From positions 1 to 26,460 of the forward strand of contig JACQOF010000102.1 in NCBI GenBank assembly GCA_016202645.1: a DNA stretch of 26,460 nucleotides. The letters run 5' to 3'. Below, in pieces: positions 10,850 to 22,637 of this stretch (position 1 is its first letter; each line of letters begins with the position of its first letter). The translations under genes were made by a program, and so were the position numbers. The notes under the pieces are model-generated. The model was given only the letters and a program-made list of their open reading frames with translations, was not told the DNA's origin and ran no database searches. This DNA is from a bacterium. GTDB taxonomy: Bacteria; Lindowbacteria; 2-12-FULL-62-27.

Positions 10850-11041
10850 ATGGCTCGAGTGTGTGAGATTTGCGGGAAGACGCCCGTGACGGGGAACAAT
10901 GTAAGTCACGCCAACAACCGGACGCGGCGGCGGTGGCTGCCGAACCTTCAAAAAATCCGCGTGGTCCTCGACGGGCGGGTGCGACGGGCCAACGTGTGCA
11001 CGCGCTGCATCAAATCTGAGAAAATCCTCAAAGCCGCGTAA
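10850..11041 (+). CDS. rpmB: 50S ribosomal protein L28
   Basis: A 63-residue ribosomal protein. It starts [25 protein letters not shown] and carries the four cysteines of the zinc-binding (C+) form: C5, C8, C50, C53. A GTG codon precedes the ATG, but AGGAGGT (10838-10844) is spaced 5 nt from the ATG, which is preferred. No rpmG follows. Instead the large kinase/HD gene begins within 90 nt, and its frame is open through the 3' end of rpmB. Confidence 0.97.
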
Positions 11042-11129
11042 AATTCGGAACGAGCGGCCCGACCTGAAGGGCCTCTTTCCCGACTCCGACCGGGAAGACC
11101 GGGAGGGTCTGCGGCGTCTTGCGGAATTT

Positions 11130-14100
11130 TTGCGGGAGTTCGACTCGCCCCGAGCCGTTGCCGGGGGGATTCGCGGGCTATTGGGGCTTGGCGACCCCCT
11201 CGTCGCGCCCGCCGCGACGTTTCTTCGGCGCCGGCAGGATCCCCAATTTGAAAAATGGGATTACCCGGTGAATGTCTACACCCTCATCGAGACCGACGAG
11301 GGTCGTCTGCTCTCCCTGCCGCCCGGAACGCGCCGGCTGTCGACGTACCGGGGCGTGATTCCGGACATCATCGACCGGCAGATCGCCGTGAGGTTTCCGC
11401 GGCTTCTGGAAGAACTCGCCAACCGGCCCAACCTGTTTTTCCCGGGAGTTTATTTTCCCCGCGAGTTTGACATCTCGAACATGGAAATGATCTCGGCGAT
11501 GCACGGGACCTTCTACGTCGTGAACGCCGAACTCTGGGTCGGGCATCCCGTGTCGGTGGTGCTGAAGCCCACGGACATGGCGCTCGAGGCGATCCTGACT
11601 TTCATCCTCCAGGTGATCAACCGGAAACTCGACCCGGCAGTCCGGAAAAAGATCGGGCCGATAGCCGCGCCGACCATCGTCGCAATCGACGACGTCTACG
11701 GGATCCTGGAACTCATCCCGGGAAAAAATGGCGTCGAGTTTCTGCCGCGCGGGATCAAGACCGGCACGATCCTGGACCTGCGGAAGAACGAGTATCCGGC
11801 GGATTTGAACCTGACGAGAGAGGAATCGCTTCAAGTGGCCAGGGAATTTGCCAAGCAGGCGGTGATGGCGTACTACCTGCGGCTCTACGACCGAAAACCG
11901 GACCAGATCATGATCCATCGAGCCTCGGACGGAACACTGCTCTATGCCCACATCGACTTCGGGCGGTCCCTCAAACGCAATTACGCCCTGCCCTGGAAAC
12001 GCCACTACGACCCCTCGCGCCCGGCGCTCAGTTTCGCGGTCCACGAAATTCCGTACTTCGAAGCCGCCGCCGCGTTTATTTATCTGCCGCACTTCATCCC
12101 GGCGGCGTTCCGGGAGGAACTCTCGCCGTTCGCCGGCCCTATGCGCGCGGTCATTGTCGAAACCTTTGAACTTCTGGCGCGGGAGATCAAGTCGGAGGCC
12201 GAGGACATTTACTCTCTGTTGAAATATGCCATAGGTCTTCGGACCCAGTACCGGCCAACGGAAGTCGACCGGGTCGCCGTCGATCCTCAGGACGTGGAGG
12301 AGGTCTACGCGTCGCTTCTGGCCATCGAGCGCCCCCGGGATGTCATCGAATCGATCCTGAATCTGGCCTATCACGAGCGGGAGGGCACGGCGCCGATCCA
12401 TGCGGAGGACGACGGCGGGGTCTACCGTCGCGCGCTCATGCTGGGCGACCGCGTCATGTCCCTGGCGGACCGCACGGAAGAACCGCATCCGTACCGTCTG
12501 CTGGACTACCGGGCCCGCGGCCGGATTTCCTATGATGCCGAGCAAAAAGTCCTGAGGATTTTCTTCGGCGAAGGCGACCCGGCGGAAATCTGCCGCGCGG
12601 TCGAGCGGCGTTTTTCCCGCCGGCTGGCCGAAGAGATCCGCCGGTTTCCCGGATCGGTGCGCGGCGTGTCCCTGGAAATCGCCGCCGGCGGGGAAGTCAC
12701 GGCCCGTCTTCCCGGCGGATCGGCGGGCGGAGCCCGACTCGCGCGGCGCCTGCGATTTCCTCCGGACATCATGCGTGAAATCAACGAATCGGCTTCGGGA
12801 TTCGCGCCGGATCCCCACGTTCTGGCGCGGGTGGCGGAATTTCAGGAAGCGGCGGGAACGGCGGTTGACGATCTTCAGGTGGAGTCCGACAAACAGCGGG
12901 CAATCCTTGCCAACGACCTCGAAGGGAAGGAAATCCTGCAATTTTACATGTCGATCGAGCCTGACGGCAGTCCTCTCCGGGCGGCGATGGCGGAAATGAT
13001 TCTGTACCTGATCTCCAATCCGGATTTTCTCGCGGACAAGGATCCCTACGAAAGCATCAACCAGCTGGTGCTCTCCCTCGGGCGCAAGCATCTACCTTCC
13101 CTGCGGGAACCGGCCGCGGCGTTTCTATCGCCGGAACTCCAGCGGGAATCTGAATTTGTCCGGGGCGTTCTGAACCTCTACGAGAGCGTCGATTCATCGC
13201 ATTTCGTCCATCTGGTCCTGACGGTCCGGTTTGTGGATGAGCTGGGAACACGGGCGGGCCTTTCTCCGGGCGACATGCGGATGCTTCGGACCTGCGCGGT
13301 CCTGCACGACCTGAATGTGCTGGATCGGGACTTTCGCGAGGTCCTCATGGTGCCGAGCGGCCGGCAGGGACAGAAAATTTTCACGGACGTTCTGGATCGC
13401 CACGCCGGGATCAGCGCCGAAATCCTGAAAGCGCATCTCGACGACGGGTTGATCGTCCTTCCCGCGGGACTTTCGCCGCAAGAAGTCATCGACATCGTTG
13501 AAAACCATCACCGATCTACCGGGGGGGCGCCGGCGCCGATCCGGCAGATTCTTCACCTGGCCGACAACATCGCGGTATTCAGCGACCGGACGCGTCCAGA
13601 CCACTGGAACCGGGGATTTCTGCGGGTGGAGGAAATCGCGCCCCGCTGGATCGACGCTCAGCTCGATCGCGGCCAGATAGACCGCCGCATCTGGACCGCG
13701 GCTCAGGAATTTTTTTCGGACCACAAAAATCACGTGCTCCTCCGCCGCCTGGACCGCCTCTCCATTTTCTATCCTCAATGCTATTCGGCCCTCCAGATGG
13801 CATCCGTCCTGCACCTCGGCCTCAATCCCCAGCACCCGACGCCCCTGGCGGACTTGCGGGAGCGGCACGGCGCGGAAGTGGTCGACCAGATATTCAACAA
13901 CCTGATGAAGTCGGGATTGTCCGTCCGGGACAAAATCAAAGTCATCAACCGGATCGACGCGATTTCGTCGCTCTTTCGGCCCGAGCGGTCCGGGGCCTTC
14001 GCGTTCATCAACGCGAGCGCCCAGCCGGTCCAGCGGATTGTCGAGCTCATCCTGCGGTTTGTGTCGGAGGGCCGGCAAGTCGTGCTTATGGGGGTTTTGC

Positions 14101-16064
14101 TCCGGGTCATCAAGACCTACGAGCGGTTCCGGCAGACGTACCCAGAACTCGACCGCGCCAAACGGGAGCAAGTGGTGGTCATCGCCGGCGTCCGGCGCCT
14201 GCAATTTGTCACTCATGCCTATCCGATTGAGGCGGAGTTCAGGACACCCTTCCACCGGATCATCCAAACCCGGCGCGAAGCGACCGGAGTAGAGGATCCC
14301 TGTTGCCTGATCCCGTTTGAGCATTTCATGGACGAGTATGGCGCGGCCGGGAATCCGGAAGAACGCGTCCGGAAACTCGAAAAGGCCTCGGACGTCGAAG
14401 AGGTCCCGGCCTCCGACCGGGTCCGGTCCGAGGCTGTGCGGTTCCTGAAATGGGAGCAGTCGCAGAAGAACCTCCATTACGACCGCCTGAGCAAGGAACG
14501 ATTTCGCCGGATTTTGCTGGGCGGTTTTACGAACCGGGATGTCCTGATGTTTTACGAGTCCACTCTCCAGCGGGATGCGGCGGTCCGAAAAGCCCTCCGG
14601 GAAATCATCGGGGCCCTGCATGAAAATCCCAACTTCCTCAGCGACCGGTCGGTCTACTACAGCATCCAGGAATTGGTGCGGTCGCTTGGAAAAATTCATC
14701 TCCACACGGCGGACTCGGCCACGCGGGAGGTCCGCGCGTTTTTGAAGTCTCAGGGGCTTTCGTTTTGCGTGGACCTGGCCGGTATTCCGGACCGTCTCAA
14801 GCCTCAGCTCGACGACGCCCGCTGGAACCTGGTATCCAGCCTTCAGATCGCCGTCCGCATCGGACGGACTTGGGAGACGAAATCAGGGCAGGCGCTGCCG
14901 CGTGAGGATTGGAGGCTCCTGGTTGCCGGCGTCCTGGCCGCAGGGGCTCTTTTTGAAGATGGCGTCATCGCCGATACTCTGCATTCCCCGGAGGACATCT
15001 CCGCGAACCGGCCGCTCCGGCGTCAGTTGATGAACATGCCGGTCCCCATCGCGCGTCTGGCGTCGGATTTCCTTTCCAAATCCGGCCTTTCGGCCGCCGC
15101 CCGCGACCGGCTCGCGGTTCTTTTTTCATCCGGTCCCCGGATCGGTTCGGAGACCGTTGTCTTTTCTTTGATCCAGACCGGACTGATCTTCGGTGCGTAT
15201 GGCGATTTTTCCAGAGTTGAAAACTGGAGACGCGGGACCGTCCAGATCGCCCGGGAAGATCTGGAGTGGATGTGGGAATTCATCGAACAAGAGTTCGAGC
15301 GGGAACTGGGCCGCCCCACCCCGGTGGGCCCGGCGGTGCGGGACTTTTGCAGGACCGAGGGGGAGTCTCTGCTCAACCGCATGGCGGGACGCACGCATTC
15401 CTACCTCCGGCTCTATAATTCCCTCAGTCTCGCGGCGGAACTCCGGTATGGCCTGAAAGCCCGCGGGTTCGATCTCATTCATCACGTCCGGACGCTCTAT
15501 GGTCCCGATGTGACGCGGGTGCTGACCGAGGCGATCATGGAGGCGAATTTTACGCCCCGGGACAAGGTGAAATTCGCGAGAAAACTCAGGATCCTCGCGC
15601 AGGCCCTGGCCGCCGAGGGTCGGCCGTGCGGCCGCATCCGGTTTCTCCAGACCGACCACCCGCTGGGGTTCCCGTCCCTGTCGGAACTAAGGCGCAGCCT
15701 CCAGGGACCTTATCCGACACTGGTGGTGCCGGCCGGCGACTTCCACCGGGCCTGTCAGCTGTTTGACATTCTGCGGGATCGGATGAGCCGGGATGAGTCG
15801 CGGGTGTTTCGCCGGTCGGTCCGCGTCCTGGTCGGGGAGGATTATCCGCTCTTGATCAAGGAAAAGTCCCTGGAATGGTCGGACCGCTTCCGGGAGCGGA
15901 TCGGGGCATATCGCCGGCGCCGCCGGTTGTCCAGCCGATATATTTTTGTGCCCTTTCAGGAACTGCTCATGGGCGACCGGTATCATCCGCCCGCCGCTTC
16001 GCCGCCGGCGGCGGGAGACAAGGGACTATTTTATTTCAGAACCTGGCTCCGGCTTTTTGATTGA
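11130..16064 (+). CDS. Giant PI3K-like kinase / HD-domain protein with internal duplication
   Basis: A 1644-residue soluble protein that I do not recognise as a named family. Residues about 130-310 read like a phosphatidylinositol 3/4-kinase core: VVLK (K146, phosphate-anchoring lysine) with PTDMALEAIL after it, hinge GILELIPG (191-198), catalytic loop DRKPDQIMI (254-262) and HIDFG (274-278). Relative to the usual DRHxxN loop, His is Lys256 and Asn is Gln259, so activity is uncertain. Residues about 680-830 form an HD phosphohydrolase-like domain: H691/H694, H726-D727 (AVLHD), H793-H794 (ENHHRS) and D812 (LADN). Residues about 1130-1618 repeat the unit 595-1072 but with the HD residues lost. 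No signal peptide or TM is seen. TTG at 11130 is the first usual start, without a clear Shine-Dalgarno. The frame stays open upstream through rpmB, so the N-terminus is unsettled. The 3' end overlaps the convergent gene by 39 bp. Confidence 0.75.
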   Translation: MREFDSPRAVAGGIRGLLGLGDPLVAPAATFLRRRQDPQFEKWDYPVNVYTLIETDEGRLLSLPPGTRRLSTYRGVIPDIIDRQIAVRFPRLLEELANRPNLFFPGVYFPREFDISNMEMISAMHGTFYVVNAELWVGHPVSVVLKPTDMALEAILTFILQVINRKLDPAVRKKIGPIAAPTIVAIDDVYGILELIPGKNGVEFLPRGIKTGTILDLRKNEYPADLNLTREESLQVAREFAKQAVMAYYLRLYDRKPDQIMIHRASDGTLLYAHIDFGRSLKRNYALPWKRHYDPSRPALSFAVHEIPYFEAAAAFIYLPHFIPAAFREELSPFAGPMRAVIVETFELLAREIKSEAEDIYSLLKYAIGLRTQYRPTEVDRVAVDPQDVEEVYASLLAIERPRDVIESILNLAYHEREGTAPIHAEDDGGVYRRALMLGDRVMSLADRTEEPHPYRLLDYRARGRISYDAEQKVLRIFFGEGDPAEICRAVERRFSRRLAEEIRRFPGSVRGVSLEIAAGGEVTARLPGGSAGGARLARRLRFPPDIMREINESASGFAPDPHVLARVAEFQEAAGTAVDDLQVESDKQRAILANDLEGKEILQFYMSIEPDGSPLRAAMAEMILYLISNPDFLADKDPYESINQLVLSLGRKHLPSLREPAAAFLSPELQRESEFVRGVLNLYESVDSSHFVHLVLTVRFVDELGTRAGLSPGDMRMLRTCAVLHDLNVLDRDFREVLMVPSGRQGQKIFTDVLDRHAGISAEILKAHLDDGLIVLPAGLSPQEVIDIVENHHRSTGGAPAPIRQILHLADNIAVFSDRTRPDHWNRGFLRVEEIAPRWIDAQLDRGQIDRRIWTAAQEFFSDHKNHVLLRRLDRLSIFYPQCYSALQMASVLHLGLNPQHPTPLADLRERHGAEVVDQIFNNLMKSGLSVRDKIKVINRIDAISSLFRPERSGAFAFINASAQPVQRIVELILRFVSEGRQVVLMGVLLRVIKTYERFRQTYPELDRAKREQVVVIAGVRRLQFVTHAYPIEAEFRTPFHRIIQTRREATGVEDPCCLIPFEHFMDEYGAAGNPEERVRKLEKASDVEEVPASDRVRSEAVRFLKWEQSQKNLHYDRLSKERFRRILLGGFTNRDVLMFYESTLQRDAAVRKALREIIGALHENPNFLSDRSVYYSIQELVRSLGKIHLHTADSATREVRAFLKSQGLSFCVDLAGIPDRLKPQLDDARWNLVSSLQIAVRIGRTWETKSGQALPREDWRLLVAGVLAAGALFEDGVIADTLHSPEDISANRPLRRQLMNMPVPIARLASDFLSKSGLSAAARDRLAVLFSSGPRIGSETVVFSLIQTGLIFGAYGDFSRVENWRRGTVQIAREDLEWMWEFIEQEFERELGRPTPVGPAVRDFCRTEGESLLNRMAGRTHSYLRLYNSLSLAAELRYGLKARGFDLIHHVRTLYGPDVTRVLTEAIMEANFTPRDKVKFARKLRILAQALAAEGRPCGRIRFLQTDHPLGFPSLSELRRSLQGPYPTLVVPAGDFHRACQLFDILRDRMSRDESRVFRRSVRVLVGEDYPLLIKEKSLEWSDRFRERIGAYRRRRRLSSRYIFVPFQELLMGDRYHPPAASPPAAGDKGLFYFRTWLRLFD

Positions 16065-17746: not shown

Positions 17747-19402
17747 TCAGCCTATGGCGTCGGCGTGGTAGGAGGACCGGACCAGCGGCCCCGATTCCAC
17801 ATGGCGAAATCCGAGGCGGTCCCCGATCCGTTTCCAGTGCGCGAACTCGGCGGGATGGACCCAGCGGTCGACCGGCAGATATTTCGGCGCGGGCCTCAGG
17901 TACTGCCCCAGGGTGAGGATGTCTACGGATTCTTCGGAGATGATCCTCAGCGTCTGAAAAATTTCGAAGGGATGTTCGCCGATGCCGAGCATGAGCCCTG
18001 TCTTGGTTCGAAATCCGGCGGATTTCGCCCGGCGCAGGAGTTCCAAAGACCGGCCGAATCGCGCCTGGGGCCGGACGGCCGGGTAGAGACGGGGAACGGT
18101 TTCGAGGTTGTGATTGAGAACGTCGGGTCCGGCGTCGAGAATGTCTTGAAGGGCGTTCCAATTCCCCATGAGATCAGGAATCAGAACTTCGATCCGGGTC
18201 TCCGGATTCTTTCGCCGGACGGCTCGAATGGTTTGCGCCCAGATGTCTGCGCCGCCGTCCGGCAGATCGTCCCGGTTCACCGACGTGATGACGACATGCC
18301 GAAGCGCCATATGCCGGACCGCGTCCGCGACCCGCGCGGGTTCGAATAAATCCGGCGCGCCGGGTTTGCCGGAGGCGACGGCGCAGAACCCGCAATAGCG
18401 CGTGCAAGTGTCGCCCAGAATCATGAACGTCGCCGTGCCCCGCCCCCAGCATTCGCCGAGGTTGGGACACCGGGCGCTCTCGCAGACGGTGTGGAGGTTC
18501 CGGGTGTCCATGATTTGCCGGAGCCGGGCATAGACCGGACCGCCGGGGAGCGGCCGCTTCAGCCACGGGGGTTTCGGGCCGGCGGTGTCGGGCCGGCCCC
18601 GGCGCGGAAGCACATCAGCCGAATCTGAAAGTCCATCGGGGTAGGCCCGGGACCAGAGTTCTTCCGGCTTGATCCACTCCGCCTCCCGGATTTGTCCTTC
18701 ATGGACCTGCGCGGAAAATTGCCGGGCCAGTTCGGCGATGACGGCGTCCGGATCCGGCGCGCGCCCGAGAGAGTGTTCCATCGACGTGATCGCATCTCCG
18801 GGCCGGCCGCAGGGAATGATGTAGGAAAAAGGTTTCAGGTCGGCGTCGACGTTGAGGGACAGGCCGTGATGCGAAACCGACCGGGATATTTTGACGCCGA
18901 TAAATCCGATCTTGGCGCCGTTCACCCGGACCCCCGCGCTGTCCGGCTGTCGCTCGGCGGGAAGACCGAAGGTCTTCAATGTCTCGACGAGGATTCGTTC
19001 AAGGCTCCGGACCCAGCGGAGGATTCCCGGCCCCGGGAGTTTGAAAATGGGATACGCGACAATCTGCCCCGGTCCATGGTACGTCGCATTCCCGCCGCGC
19101 CGGATGCGGACGACCTCGACACCGAGCCGCGCGAGCGTGTCGCGCGGCAGAAGCACGTCCTCCTCCGCGGCGGCTGCCCCCAGCGTGATCGTGGGCGGAT
19201 GTTCCAGAAGAACTAGCGTGTCGGGAATCAGGTCCCGGATCCTCAGATCAACCAGTTTTTCCTGCAGATCAAGCGCCGCGCGGTACGGCGTAAGGCCCAG
19301 CCGTACGCACTGAAAGGACCGGCCTTCCGCCATCAAAGATGGATCGCCCGTCCGGCTGACGCGGACGCCCGAATTTGTCCTGAGCCGCTTCGGATCAATC
19401 AT
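17747..19402 (-). CDS. LipB-LipA fusion: octanoyltransferase and lipoyl synthase
   Basis: One 551-residue chain joins the two steps of lipoate synthesis. Residues about 28-245 are LipB, which moves octanoyl from acyl-carrier protein to lipoyl domains: RRGGNATYHGPGQ, catalytic K164 (GAKIG) and C198 (IIPCGRPGD). Residues about 290-551 are LipA, the radical-SAM enzyme that inserts two sulfurs: auxiliary cluster cysteines C307, C312, C318; radical-SAM cysteines C333, C337, C340 (CTRYCGFC); and the C-terminal RSSYHA carrying the cluster-ligating serine. A linker (about 245-285) rich in Pro, Arg and Gly joins them, with no stop or frameshift. Codons 14-27 lie in a 40-bp repeat also found at the end of lpdA. 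An ATG at 19333 (residue 24) may be the true start, since family LipB begins near there. Confidence 0.93.
   Translation of the reverse strand: MIDPKRLRTNSGVRVSRTGDPSLMAEGRSFQCVRLGLTPYRAALDLQEKLVDLRIRDLIPDTLVLLEHPPTITLGAAAAEEDVLLPRDTLARLGVEVVRIRRGGNATYHGPGQIVAYPIFKLPGPGILRWVRSLERILVETLKTFGLPAERQPDSAGVRVNGAKIGFIGVKISRSVSHHGLSLNVDADLKPFSYIIPCGRPGDAITSMEHSLGRAPDPDAVIAELARQFSAQVHEGQIREAEWIKPEELWSRAYPDGLSDSADVLPRRGRPDTAGPKPPWLKRPLPGGPVYARLRQIMDTRNLHTVCESARCPNLGECWGRGTATFMILGDTCTRYCGFCAVASGKPGAPDLFEPARVADAVRHMALRHVVITSVNRDDLPDGGADIWAQTIRAVRRKNPETRIEVLIPDLMGNWNALQDILDAGPDVLNHNLETVPRLYPAVRPQARFGRSLELLRRAKSAGFRTKTGLMLGIGEHPFEIFQTLRIISEESVDILTLGQYLRPAPKYLPVDRWVHPAEFAHWKRIGDRLGFRHVESGPLVRSSYHADAIG
19324..19363. 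repeat. 40-bp repeat, copy in the lipB-lipA 5' end
   Basis: CTTCCGCCATCAAAGATGG... through GGCTGACGCG matches 22872-22911 at 38 of 40 positions in the same orientation. It contains the small palindrome CCATC-AAA-GATGG. Here it encodes residues RVSRTGDPSLMAEG of the fusion protein. Confidence 0.85.
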
Positions 19403-20713: not shown

Positions 20714-20778
20714 CTCGATCGGTATTTGCGGTCGAGTAGACCGGGCGGGGCAAGTAAAGACCCCGCCGGCCCCTCACA

Positions 20779-20811
20779 GAACCCCGCATGCGGATTTCCC
20801 GCACGAGGCTC
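20779..20811 (-). ncRNA. Group II intron domain V
   Basis: On the minus strand the sequence runs GAGCCTCGTGCGGG-AAAT-CCGCATGCGGGGTTC. It folds as the typical 34-nt domain V hairpin with a GNRA-like cap and a two-base bulge. Domain V is the catalytic heart of group II ribozymes. It starts 12 nt after the reverse transcriptase stop. Confidence 0.85.
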
Positions 20812-20822
20812 TTCAAACCGAC

Positions 20823-22343
20823 TCATGGATTGGCGACGGCATGAACATAGGATTTGGGAAGGCAGGGGATCGGTAATGGATATCGTTTCAGGTATTCCGC
20901 GAAGCGTTCCCACGAAAGCGTGTGGCGTTGGCTTCTTTGCCTCAGCCACTGGCACCACGCCCGTGTCACCCTGTAAAAGGACCCTTTAATTCTCCGCAGG
21001 TTTCCCGTCACACCGTAGTACTGATAGTGTCCACGCAGAACCATACAGAGATGGTGATGCTGTTCCTTCCGGGGCAGACACCGGTTTGATTTGACCCATT
21101 CCACAACTCGCGTGACGGCTTTCTGGAATCGCTTTCGTTGCGTCTGGCGCATGACCTGAAACTTTCCATGACGCGACTCTCCGCAGTAGTGTGTGAATCC
21201 GAGGAAGTCGAACGTCTCCGGCTTTCGATTCTGTCGAGACTCTTGCTCCTTCGCAAATCGGCCAAACCGGATGAGTTTTGTCTTCCCTTCGTTTAATCGC
21301 AACCCGAATTTCCCAAGTCGCTTGGGCAACACCGCCAGCACCCTCCTCGCGTCATCTTCTTTCTGAAATAGGATGAGGAAGTCGTCCGCATATCGGATGT
21401 ATCGGCACTCGCCGGACATTCGACCGTAGACAACGTCCTCCATCCATTCATCCAGAACATGGTGCAGGAAAATGTTGGCCAGTATCGGGCTGATCACTCC
21501 GCCCTGCGGCGTCCCCCGCTCGCGGGGTTGGATCCCCGCTTCGGTCATCACTCCAGCCTTGAGCCATTTGCCGATGAGCCGTACAATTCGCCCATCCTTG
21601 ACCCGTCGCCGGACGATTTCCATCAGCTTCCGATGATCCATCTCATCGAAGAATCGGCTGATGTCCGCATCCAGTACCCAGTTCACTTTCCCGAACAAAA
21701 TCGCTTTCCGGAGAGCCTCCAATGCCTCATGAGCTGAACGCCCCGGCCGGAAACCATACGAACACTCCCTGAAATCCTGTTCGTATATGGCTTCCAGAAT
21801 CATCGCGACCGCCTTCTGCACAATTTTGTCCTCCAGCGTAGGTATCCCAAGTTCCCGAAAACTTCCGTCTTCCTTCGGAATCTTGGCGCGGCGGACTGGC
21901 GGCGCACGGTACGATCCTTTCCTCAAGCGTTCGTGCAGGGCTTGGATATTTTCTTCCAGTTTCTCCCCGTAGACTCCGGCTGTCATCCCGTCAACTCCTG
22001 TTGCACCATCTTTACGGATTCTCACCCATGCTTCCTTCAGGTGTTCCGTGCCCATCAGATGGGCGAGGGATGTAAATACCGTGTTCGGTTCCCGCTTCGC
22101 CTTCTCCGCTATGCGTACAAGTTTCGGTGACATGGTTGGCAACCTCTGTGGGTTTCCCATGGTTCCCTCATACACGCGTTGGTTTGTCGTCCCCTTCCCT
22201 CCGGGAGCGTTACTTCCCTTCAGCGGTACTATGGGACGATCCAACTTCCCTTCCGGCTTCGACTCGCCCTCCGGTTTGCCCTCGGGTTCGTCTACCGTTC
22301 TTTCGGACCGGTTGGGATCTCCCAAGTTCCCATCAACGCTCAC
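20823..22343 (-). CDS. ltrA: Group II intron reverse transcriptase/maturase
   Basis: The protein splices and mobilises its host intron. In the 506-residue frame the RT domain shows GFRPGRSAHEAL, D225-A-D227 (first catalytic motif), RGTPQGGVISPILANIFLHH, and YADD (318-321). The thumb/maturase segment follows, with GFTHYCGESRHGKF and RGHYQYYGVTGN. It ends soon after the maturase domain; there is no HNH endonuclease, so mobility would rely on other priming. The first 60 residues are low-complexity (Pro, Gly, Glu, Lys) and may be intron RNA rather than protein; ATGs at residues 62 (22160) and 71 (22133) are plausible starts. The reading frame is intact, so the element may be active. Confidence 0.93.
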   Translation of the reverse strand: MSVDGNLGDPNRSERTVDEPEGKPEGESKPEGKLDRPIVPLKGSNAPGGKGTTNQRVYEGTMGNPQRLPTMSPKLVRIAEKAKREPNTVFTSLAHLMGTEHLKEAWVRIRKDGATGVDGMTAGVYGEKLEENIQALHERLRKGSYRAPPVRRAKIPKEDGSFRELGIPTLEDKIVQKAVAMILEAIYEQDFRECSYGFRPGRSAHEALEALRKAILFGKVNWVLDADISRFFDEMDHRKLMEIVRRRVKDGRIVRLIGKWLKAGVMTEAGIQPRERGTPQGGVISPILANIFLHHVLDEWMEDVVYGRMSGECRYIRYADDFLILFQKEDDARRVLAVLPKRLGKFGLRLNEGKTKLIRFGRFAKEQESRQNRKPETFDFLGFTHYCGESRHGKFQVMRQTQRKRFQKAVTRVVEWVKSNRCLPRKEQHHHLCMVLRGHYQYYGVTGNLRRIKGSFYRVTRAWCQWLRQRSQRHTLSWERFAEYLKRYPLPIPCLPKSYVHAVANP

Positions 22344-22637
22344 TGGCTCGCATGCCGTTGTCTACGACCCCGGTGGAACTACGCGACCTTGCCTTCTCGG
22401 TCGTTTCGTATTGCCTTCGGCGCAAATAAGCGACTCGGCTTCCACGAATACTTCCCTTTCGGGAAGGGTTGACTTTTCGAGGCTCAATCCATTCACTTGC
22501 GTTACGGCCTGCGCCCTCCCTGTCTACGCTTCACGCCGTCAGTTACCTGACGCCGCGCAAGACTCGGTTCCGCATTGCTGGCTAAGCTCTATGCGGGTGT
22601 AATCTATCACCAGCGCCGATGAGCTTTCTTGGCGCAC

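Follow-up and report, generated by a model that had tools for sequence, protein, structure and literature searches.

A Lindowbacteria protein joining a PI3/PI4-kinase-like domain to an HD domain and its diverged tandem copy, a candidate signalling protein

A PI3/PI4-kinase-like domain, an HD domain and a diverged second copy of the HD module are encoded as one chain in three genera of Lindowbacteria, in all of which the kinase-like residues and the HD metal ligands are invariant, and the metal site of the second module has been lost after duplication. The giant gene in question lies in the window, a stretch of 26,460 nucleotides from contig JACQOF010000102.1, as one intact open frame at 11130-16064 on the forward strand with 1644 codons counted from a TTG. 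We can conclude that its product is apparently an undescribed, lineage-specific architecture assembled from two known superfamilies and an internal duplication with a dead copy. We tentatively read it, giving the reading slightly less than an even chance, as a soluble, phylum-specific signalling protein in which a kinase and an HD phosphodiesterase are linked by a pseudo-HD copy. The features are as follows, with residues counted from 11043, so that they exceed those of the sequence-only reading (counted from TTG 11130) by 29:

10850-11041, forward strand: rpmB, encoding ribosomal protein L28 (PF00830, 86 bits), immediately upstream of the giant gene
11043-16064, forward strand: giant gene, a single, by prediction soluble chain of 1673 residues if started at ATT 11043 or 1644 residues if started at TTG 11130
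11460-12077, forward strand: PI3/PI4-kinase-like domain, residues 140-345, matched by PF00454 in all three sequences
12765-14381, forward strand: module A, about 540 residues (575-1113), consisting of a helical part, the HD domain, a helical part and an alpha/beta part
13191-13592, forward strand: HD-GYP-like putative metal-binding domain without GYP, PF01966 matching all three HD segments
13977-14339, forward strand: alpha/beta tail of module A, modelled as beta-alpha-beta-alpha-beta-alpha-beta, local pLDDT mostly 60-87
14382-16061, forward strand: module B, residues 1114-1673, a diverged tandem copy of module A with a pseudo-HD

The giant gene is single-copy in its source genome (2.9 Mb, 82% complete) and is present in each of the three Lindowbacteria species sampled, which represent three genera, with identical architecture and 54-69% identity to the window protein; three-way identity over the whole protein is 50%, and the family alignments rest on these three sequences, which are all that exist. 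The homologue in genome G001 (L005) is intact, with 1714 residues and its parts in matching order in one frame, and that in G002 is split across two contig ends (L006 and L008) overlapping by 46 residues. The sequence-only reading had raised the prospect that the domains are separate in close relatives and fused here by assembly error, and the origin of the window in a draft genome of 146 contigs, together with the broken gene of G002, could be taken to point that way. However, independently assembled genomes of different genera have the parts in the same order and in a single frame, which rules out that two genes were joined by misassembly, and the break in G002 sits precisely at contig ends that share the overlap. 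Since the other Lindowbacteria genomes thus share the architecture, the chance of an artefact is practically negligible. The further prospect that the family had already been described is likewise not borne out, as neither a description of it nor any paper on a PIK-HD fusion was found. A profile of the N-terminal part had no matches in 287 further genomes sampled across the domain Bacteria, nor in 195 genomes of another phylum, the latter being an empty answer obtained without a positive control. No relatives were found in viral contigs or plasmids, and scanning genome contigs with an exact peptide pattern, a method that detects close relatives only, returned just two Lindowbacteria records.

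The kinase-like domain was recognized through PF00454 (PI3_PI4_kinase), which in hmmscan scores 26.3 bits against a cut-off of 27.1 (E 8e-6, residues 235-285 in TTG numbering) and in the genome search 28.7, 27.1 and 27.3 bits for the three homologues. Its motifs are HGTF at 154-157, K175 in VVLKPTD, GILELIPG at 220-227, DRKPDQ at 283-288 and HIDFG with D305; K175, D283, Q288 and D305 are invariant in the three genera, K175 being assigned as the ATP-binding lysine from motif order alone. The catalytic D-R-x-x-x-N loop is not matched, as all three sequences read DRKPDQ and hence keep the Asp and Arg and replace the Asn by Gln. The region from this loop to the DFG motif shows a three-way identity of 81%, against 50% for the whole protein and only 29% for the pseudo-HD stretch of module B. 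The likeness to PI3/PI4 kinases lies in the catalytic loop and DFG region (48 profile positions), and the giant protein is without a match over the remaining profile and to any solved structure by sequence, a PDB profile search with the kinase part likewise giving no significant match. The putative kinase fold is not structurally confirmed, since the PF00454 score is at the cut-off and the AlphaFold2 model of this part, built from 3 sequences only, has a pLDDT of 39.7.

Among 386 genomes, PF00454-like proteins include many of about 250 residues with DRKxxH...IDHG, and one of these that was checked belongs to the SCO1664 family (TIGR03843, 260 bits). This family and the giant protein share their motif order (SN.TF/YKP/GIG/DRKxxH/IDHG and HGTF/LKP/GIL/DRKPDQ/IDFG, respectively), as is also seen in a local profile comparison of the kinase domain that spans 174 columns with an E of 0.0019, a pairwise and weak match. 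The SCO1664 proteins are however stand-alone proteins of about 250 residues, and NCBIfam TIGR03843 does not match the giant protein. In 15 non-Lindowbacteria genomes with PF00454-like matches the frames are mostly of 241-493 codons, and inspection by eye of one with 785 codons revealed no HD pattern. Another of these frames, with 4836 codons, lies in G229 (L104:1642-16149, reverse strand); its sole Pfam match is a mid-frame PI3/PI4-kinase domain (70.9 bits), and by Pfam it has no HD.

The HD domain of module A is matched by PF01966 with 25.2 bits against a cut-off of 22 (residues 694-814 in TTG numbering); a match to NCBIfam HDIG stays below its cut-off, and PF13487 (HD_5) does not match the giant gene. 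A full ligand set of H726-D727, H793-H794 and D812 had been claimed from the sequence, and these residues are indeed present and invariant, but the set was incomplete in that H694 and H758 had been missed. In the present numbering the ligands are H723, H755-D756, H787, H822-H823 and D841, all seven of which are invariant in the three genera. The order H..HD..H..HH..D is the di- or trinuclear ligand set of the phosphodiesterases of the HD superfamily (PMC8177086). In the HD-GYP phosphodiesterase PmGH the ligands are H189, H221-D222, H250, H276-H277 and D305, with E185 for the third metal, and D183 and K225 are putative catalytic residues, mutation of K225 having cut the activity as severely as loss of a metal ligand (PMC4159591). 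The giant protein resembles PmGH in that D717, equivalent to D183, precedes H723 by six residues as D183 does H189, and that H723 and H755 are spaced by 32 residues, exactly as H189 and H221; furthermore, the stretch DNIAVFSDRTRP resembles DxxDAxxSDRPYR of the HD-GYP proteins. It differs in having Ser at the position of E185 (dinuclear type), in lacking the HDxGK lysine corresponding to K225 (HDLNV in all three sequences) and in being embedded in a duplicated module of about 540 residues with an alpha/beta tail. The GYP motif (HHExxDGxGYP) is likewise absent, the three sequences reading HHRSTGGAPAP, HHRPSGR and HHRQSTGPTGR, and the stretch from HH to D has 18 residues instead of the 28 of PmGH, being about 10 shorter at the GYP loop, which is therefore missing. 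According to a review, all active HD-GYPs carry the GYP triad (PMC8177086). By this defining motif the HD domain is not an HD-GYP member, but it resembles the HD-GYP domains, and that group is its probable origin.

Structural comparison points in the same direction. With the AlphaFold2 model of module A (pLDDT 60.7; about 50-83 in the HD part), which is usable for its HD part only, both Foldseek and VIA-align rank HD-GYP domains first, the best Foldseek E being 0.018 and the VIA-align Z being 13.2 for DvhD (rmsd 4.0, 180 aligned), 11.4 for PA4781 and 11.1 for both PmGH and V-cGAP3, with other HD proteins at about 10 and lower. Mostly helical models may however reach a Z of 11-13 by chance, and since the Foldseek E-values are also modest, the argument rests on the sequence ligands. 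In two genomes outside Lindowbacteria the module A profile also matches true HD-GYP proteins, which carry the GYP motif or have REC or GGDEF partners. A direct profile comparison with HD-GYP domains of the Lindowbacteria genomes covers the first helices only (E 0.0014, reversed control 0.41). PDB profile searches with module A and with the HD segment gave no significant match.

The tandem duplication of the HD module of about 540 residues is newly recognized here and was missing from the sequence-only account. Modules A and B are related with blastp E-values down to 2e-16, and in hhalign with a probability of 98.6% and an E of 5.5e-16 over 486 columns. In module B the residues at the aligned metal-ligand positions are replaced, and judged by this alignment it is a pseudo-HD that has lost its metal ligands. 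As the seven ligands are kept in module A and lost in module B, the site of module A seems to be under selection, and the retention of both the kinase motifs and the seven-ligand set alongside a decayed module B argues that the protein makes use of its kinase-like site as well as of its first HD site. The earlier claim of kinase-like and HD domains in one chain is in agreement with the Pfam matches and with key residues kept in three genera, and this conservation, along with linkage to rpmB in all three genomes, also supports the wider notion of a new two-domain signalling protein.

Placing the start of the giant gene at TTG 11130, as had been done from the sequence, now seems the less likely choice. 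About 28 residues upstream of this codon can be aligned with both homologues, P6, L8, F12, P13, E21, G22, R24 and L26 being invariant in the three sequences, and the codon-position GC of 11043-11129 is 0.79/0.41/0.72, as compared to 0.67/0.42/0.76 in the gene. Because both the alignment and the codon-position GC extend upstream, the true start probably lies before TTG 11130, at about 11043-11064, and since there is no in-frame ATG, GTG or TTG between the rpmB stop (11041) and 11130, ATT 11043 or CTG 11064 is likely. Hydropathy in 19-residue windows revealed no transmembrane stretch in any of the three sequences, the top window reaching 1.89 in the window protein only and at most 1.56 in the other homologues, so that the protein does appear soluble, as first proposed. 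In both relatives the giant gene begins with TTG right after a palindromic repeat behind rpmB. This repeat is a dispersed element of the form AAAGTGATATC(ATGATATC)n...GATATCACTTT, the centre of which is specific to the genus (GATAGCTATC in G001, GATATATATC in G002), and it occurs at L077:2040-2112 and 14 more sites in G001 and at L103:1575-1649 and 17 more sites in G002, three of the 15 sites in G001 being orthologous in G002, among them the site that separates rpmB from the giant gene. As a regulator of the giant gene it was rejected: it is dispersed in the genomes of the relatives and has no copies in that of the window, and is therefore no part of the giant-gene system.

The position downstream of rpmB, already observed from the sequence, holds in all three genomes, L28-coding DNA lying directly 5' of the giant gene in G001 and G002 as well, and rpmB is the sole neighbour constant across all three. 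With the upstream starts the gap between the two genes is only 1-22 bases, which suggests that they are co-transcribed, and a sigma-70-like site, recognized by consensus only, precedes rpmB. The window carries the series secY, adk, map, rpsM, rpsK, rpsD, rpoA and rplQ, followed by genes for an FtsX-like protein, M23 and S41 peptidases and a polysaccharide deacetylase and then by rpmB and the giant gene. Upstream of rpmB, both G001 and G002 carry an FtsW/RodA-type gene, and in both a GT2 glycosyltransferase gene directly follows the giant gene. In G001 a gene on the opposite strand (L007:8328-9404, reverse strand), which fuses an adenylate/guanylate cyclase catalytic domain to an RDD membrane domain, lies between the FtsW/RodA-type gene and rpmB. 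Elsewhere in the window, a group II intron with a reverse transcriptase/maturase (20731-22607, reverse strand; RF02005, RF00029, TIGR04416) sits between a Fic-HTH gene and a lipoamide-dehydrogenase-like gene, and an LplA-B_cat lipoyl ligase/transferase and a radical-SAM lipoyl synthase share one frame (17750-19402, reverse strand), an arrangement also present at L007:16642-18438 (reverse strand) and thus in two genera in all.

As to function, we propose a soluble, phylum-specific signalling protein in which the PI3/PI4-kinase-like domain, with its Lys, DRKPDQ and IDFG, would phosphorylate a protein or small molecule rather than endogenous phosphatidylinositol. The HD-GYP-derived, phosphodiesterase-class HD domain would bind two metals and hydrolyse a phosphoester, most plausibly that of a (di)nucleotide, and the metal-free module B may act as a pseudo-enzyme, either as an intramolecular partner or as a ligand sensor that couples the two activities. 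We infer both catalytic activities, the substrate class, the coupling and the role of module B, the latter two from the architecture, and the co-occurrence of domains is by itself no proof that kinase and HD are coupled. It could instead be that the HD domain is the sole enzyme, regulated by a pseudokinase that senses ATP/ADP, and the exchange of the catalytic-loop Asn for Gln in all three sequences and the borderline PF00454 score are in agreement with this. This seems somewhat unlikely, however, as the catalytic Asp, the DFG Asp and the Lys are invariant and the region is among the most conserved of the protein; furthermore, SCO1664-like kinases are also without the Asn and carry His in its place, and its loss alone is therefore no mark of inactivity. 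We likewise find it unlikely that the kinase is the sole enzyme and both HD copies are regulatory, module A being metal-bound or a ligand-binding degenerate HD-GYP like Bd1817 of Bdellovibrio, even though the lack of GYP and of the HDxGK lysine, the Ser in place of E185 and the negative PF13487 result would fit, and Bd1817, an HD-GYP fold in which the GYP is likewise degraded, shows no activity towards c-di-GMP (PMC8177086). Bd1817 has Asn as last ligand where the giant protein keeps Asp, the HD domain of the giant protein is, unlike Bd1817, part of a chain that also contains a kinase-like domain and another HD-like module, and the invariance of the seven dinuclear ligands in module A, against their loss in module B, speaks against a purely regulatory role.

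A phosphoinositide system, in which the kinase would phosphorylate phosphatidylinositol and the HD domain strip the phosphate, takes its support from the Pfam name of the kinase match and nothing else, and is very improbable. Inositol-1-phosphate synthase (Inos-1-P_synth, PF01658) was not detected in the three genomes, which are 82-94% complete, and this weakens the phosphatidylinositol-kinase reading even if inositol might be imported; moreover, the activity known for HD domains with this type of ligand set is that of a nucleotide phosphodiesterase (PMC8177086), and the giant protein has no membrane segment. Each of the three genomes in addition has 7-15 GGDEF and 7-11 HD-GYP matches, and because c-di-GMP enzymes are present and inositol-1-phosphate synthase is undetected, a nucleotide-type substrate of the HD domain and a non-phosphoinositide substrate of the kinase are more likely. 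The earlier suggestion of a synthase/hydrolase for a phosphorylated small molecule is conjectural: judged from its phosphodiesterase-type ligands, the HD domain might undo what the kinase makes, but its class would suit an (oligo)nucleotide phosphoester no less well. That the protein founds a new, phylum-defining bifunctional signalling class, in which a PIK-like kinase would act on the same phosphorylated messenger as an HD-GYP-derived hydrolase or on a linked one, with a built-in pseudo-HD sensor and a tie to growth via the rpmB transcript, is a quite doubtful extension of our preferred reading of a kinase and an HD phosphodiesterase linked by a pseudo-HD copy.

The giant protein adds an apparently undescribed architecture that unites two enzyme superfamilies and is retained by all sampled species of a candidate phylum for which the genomes used here are metagenome assemblies alone. 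The pair of intact HD and pseudo-HD offers a clean test of dead copies regulating live ones, and if both sites work, the protein would provide a compact model of opposing phosphate chemistry within one bacterial chain.
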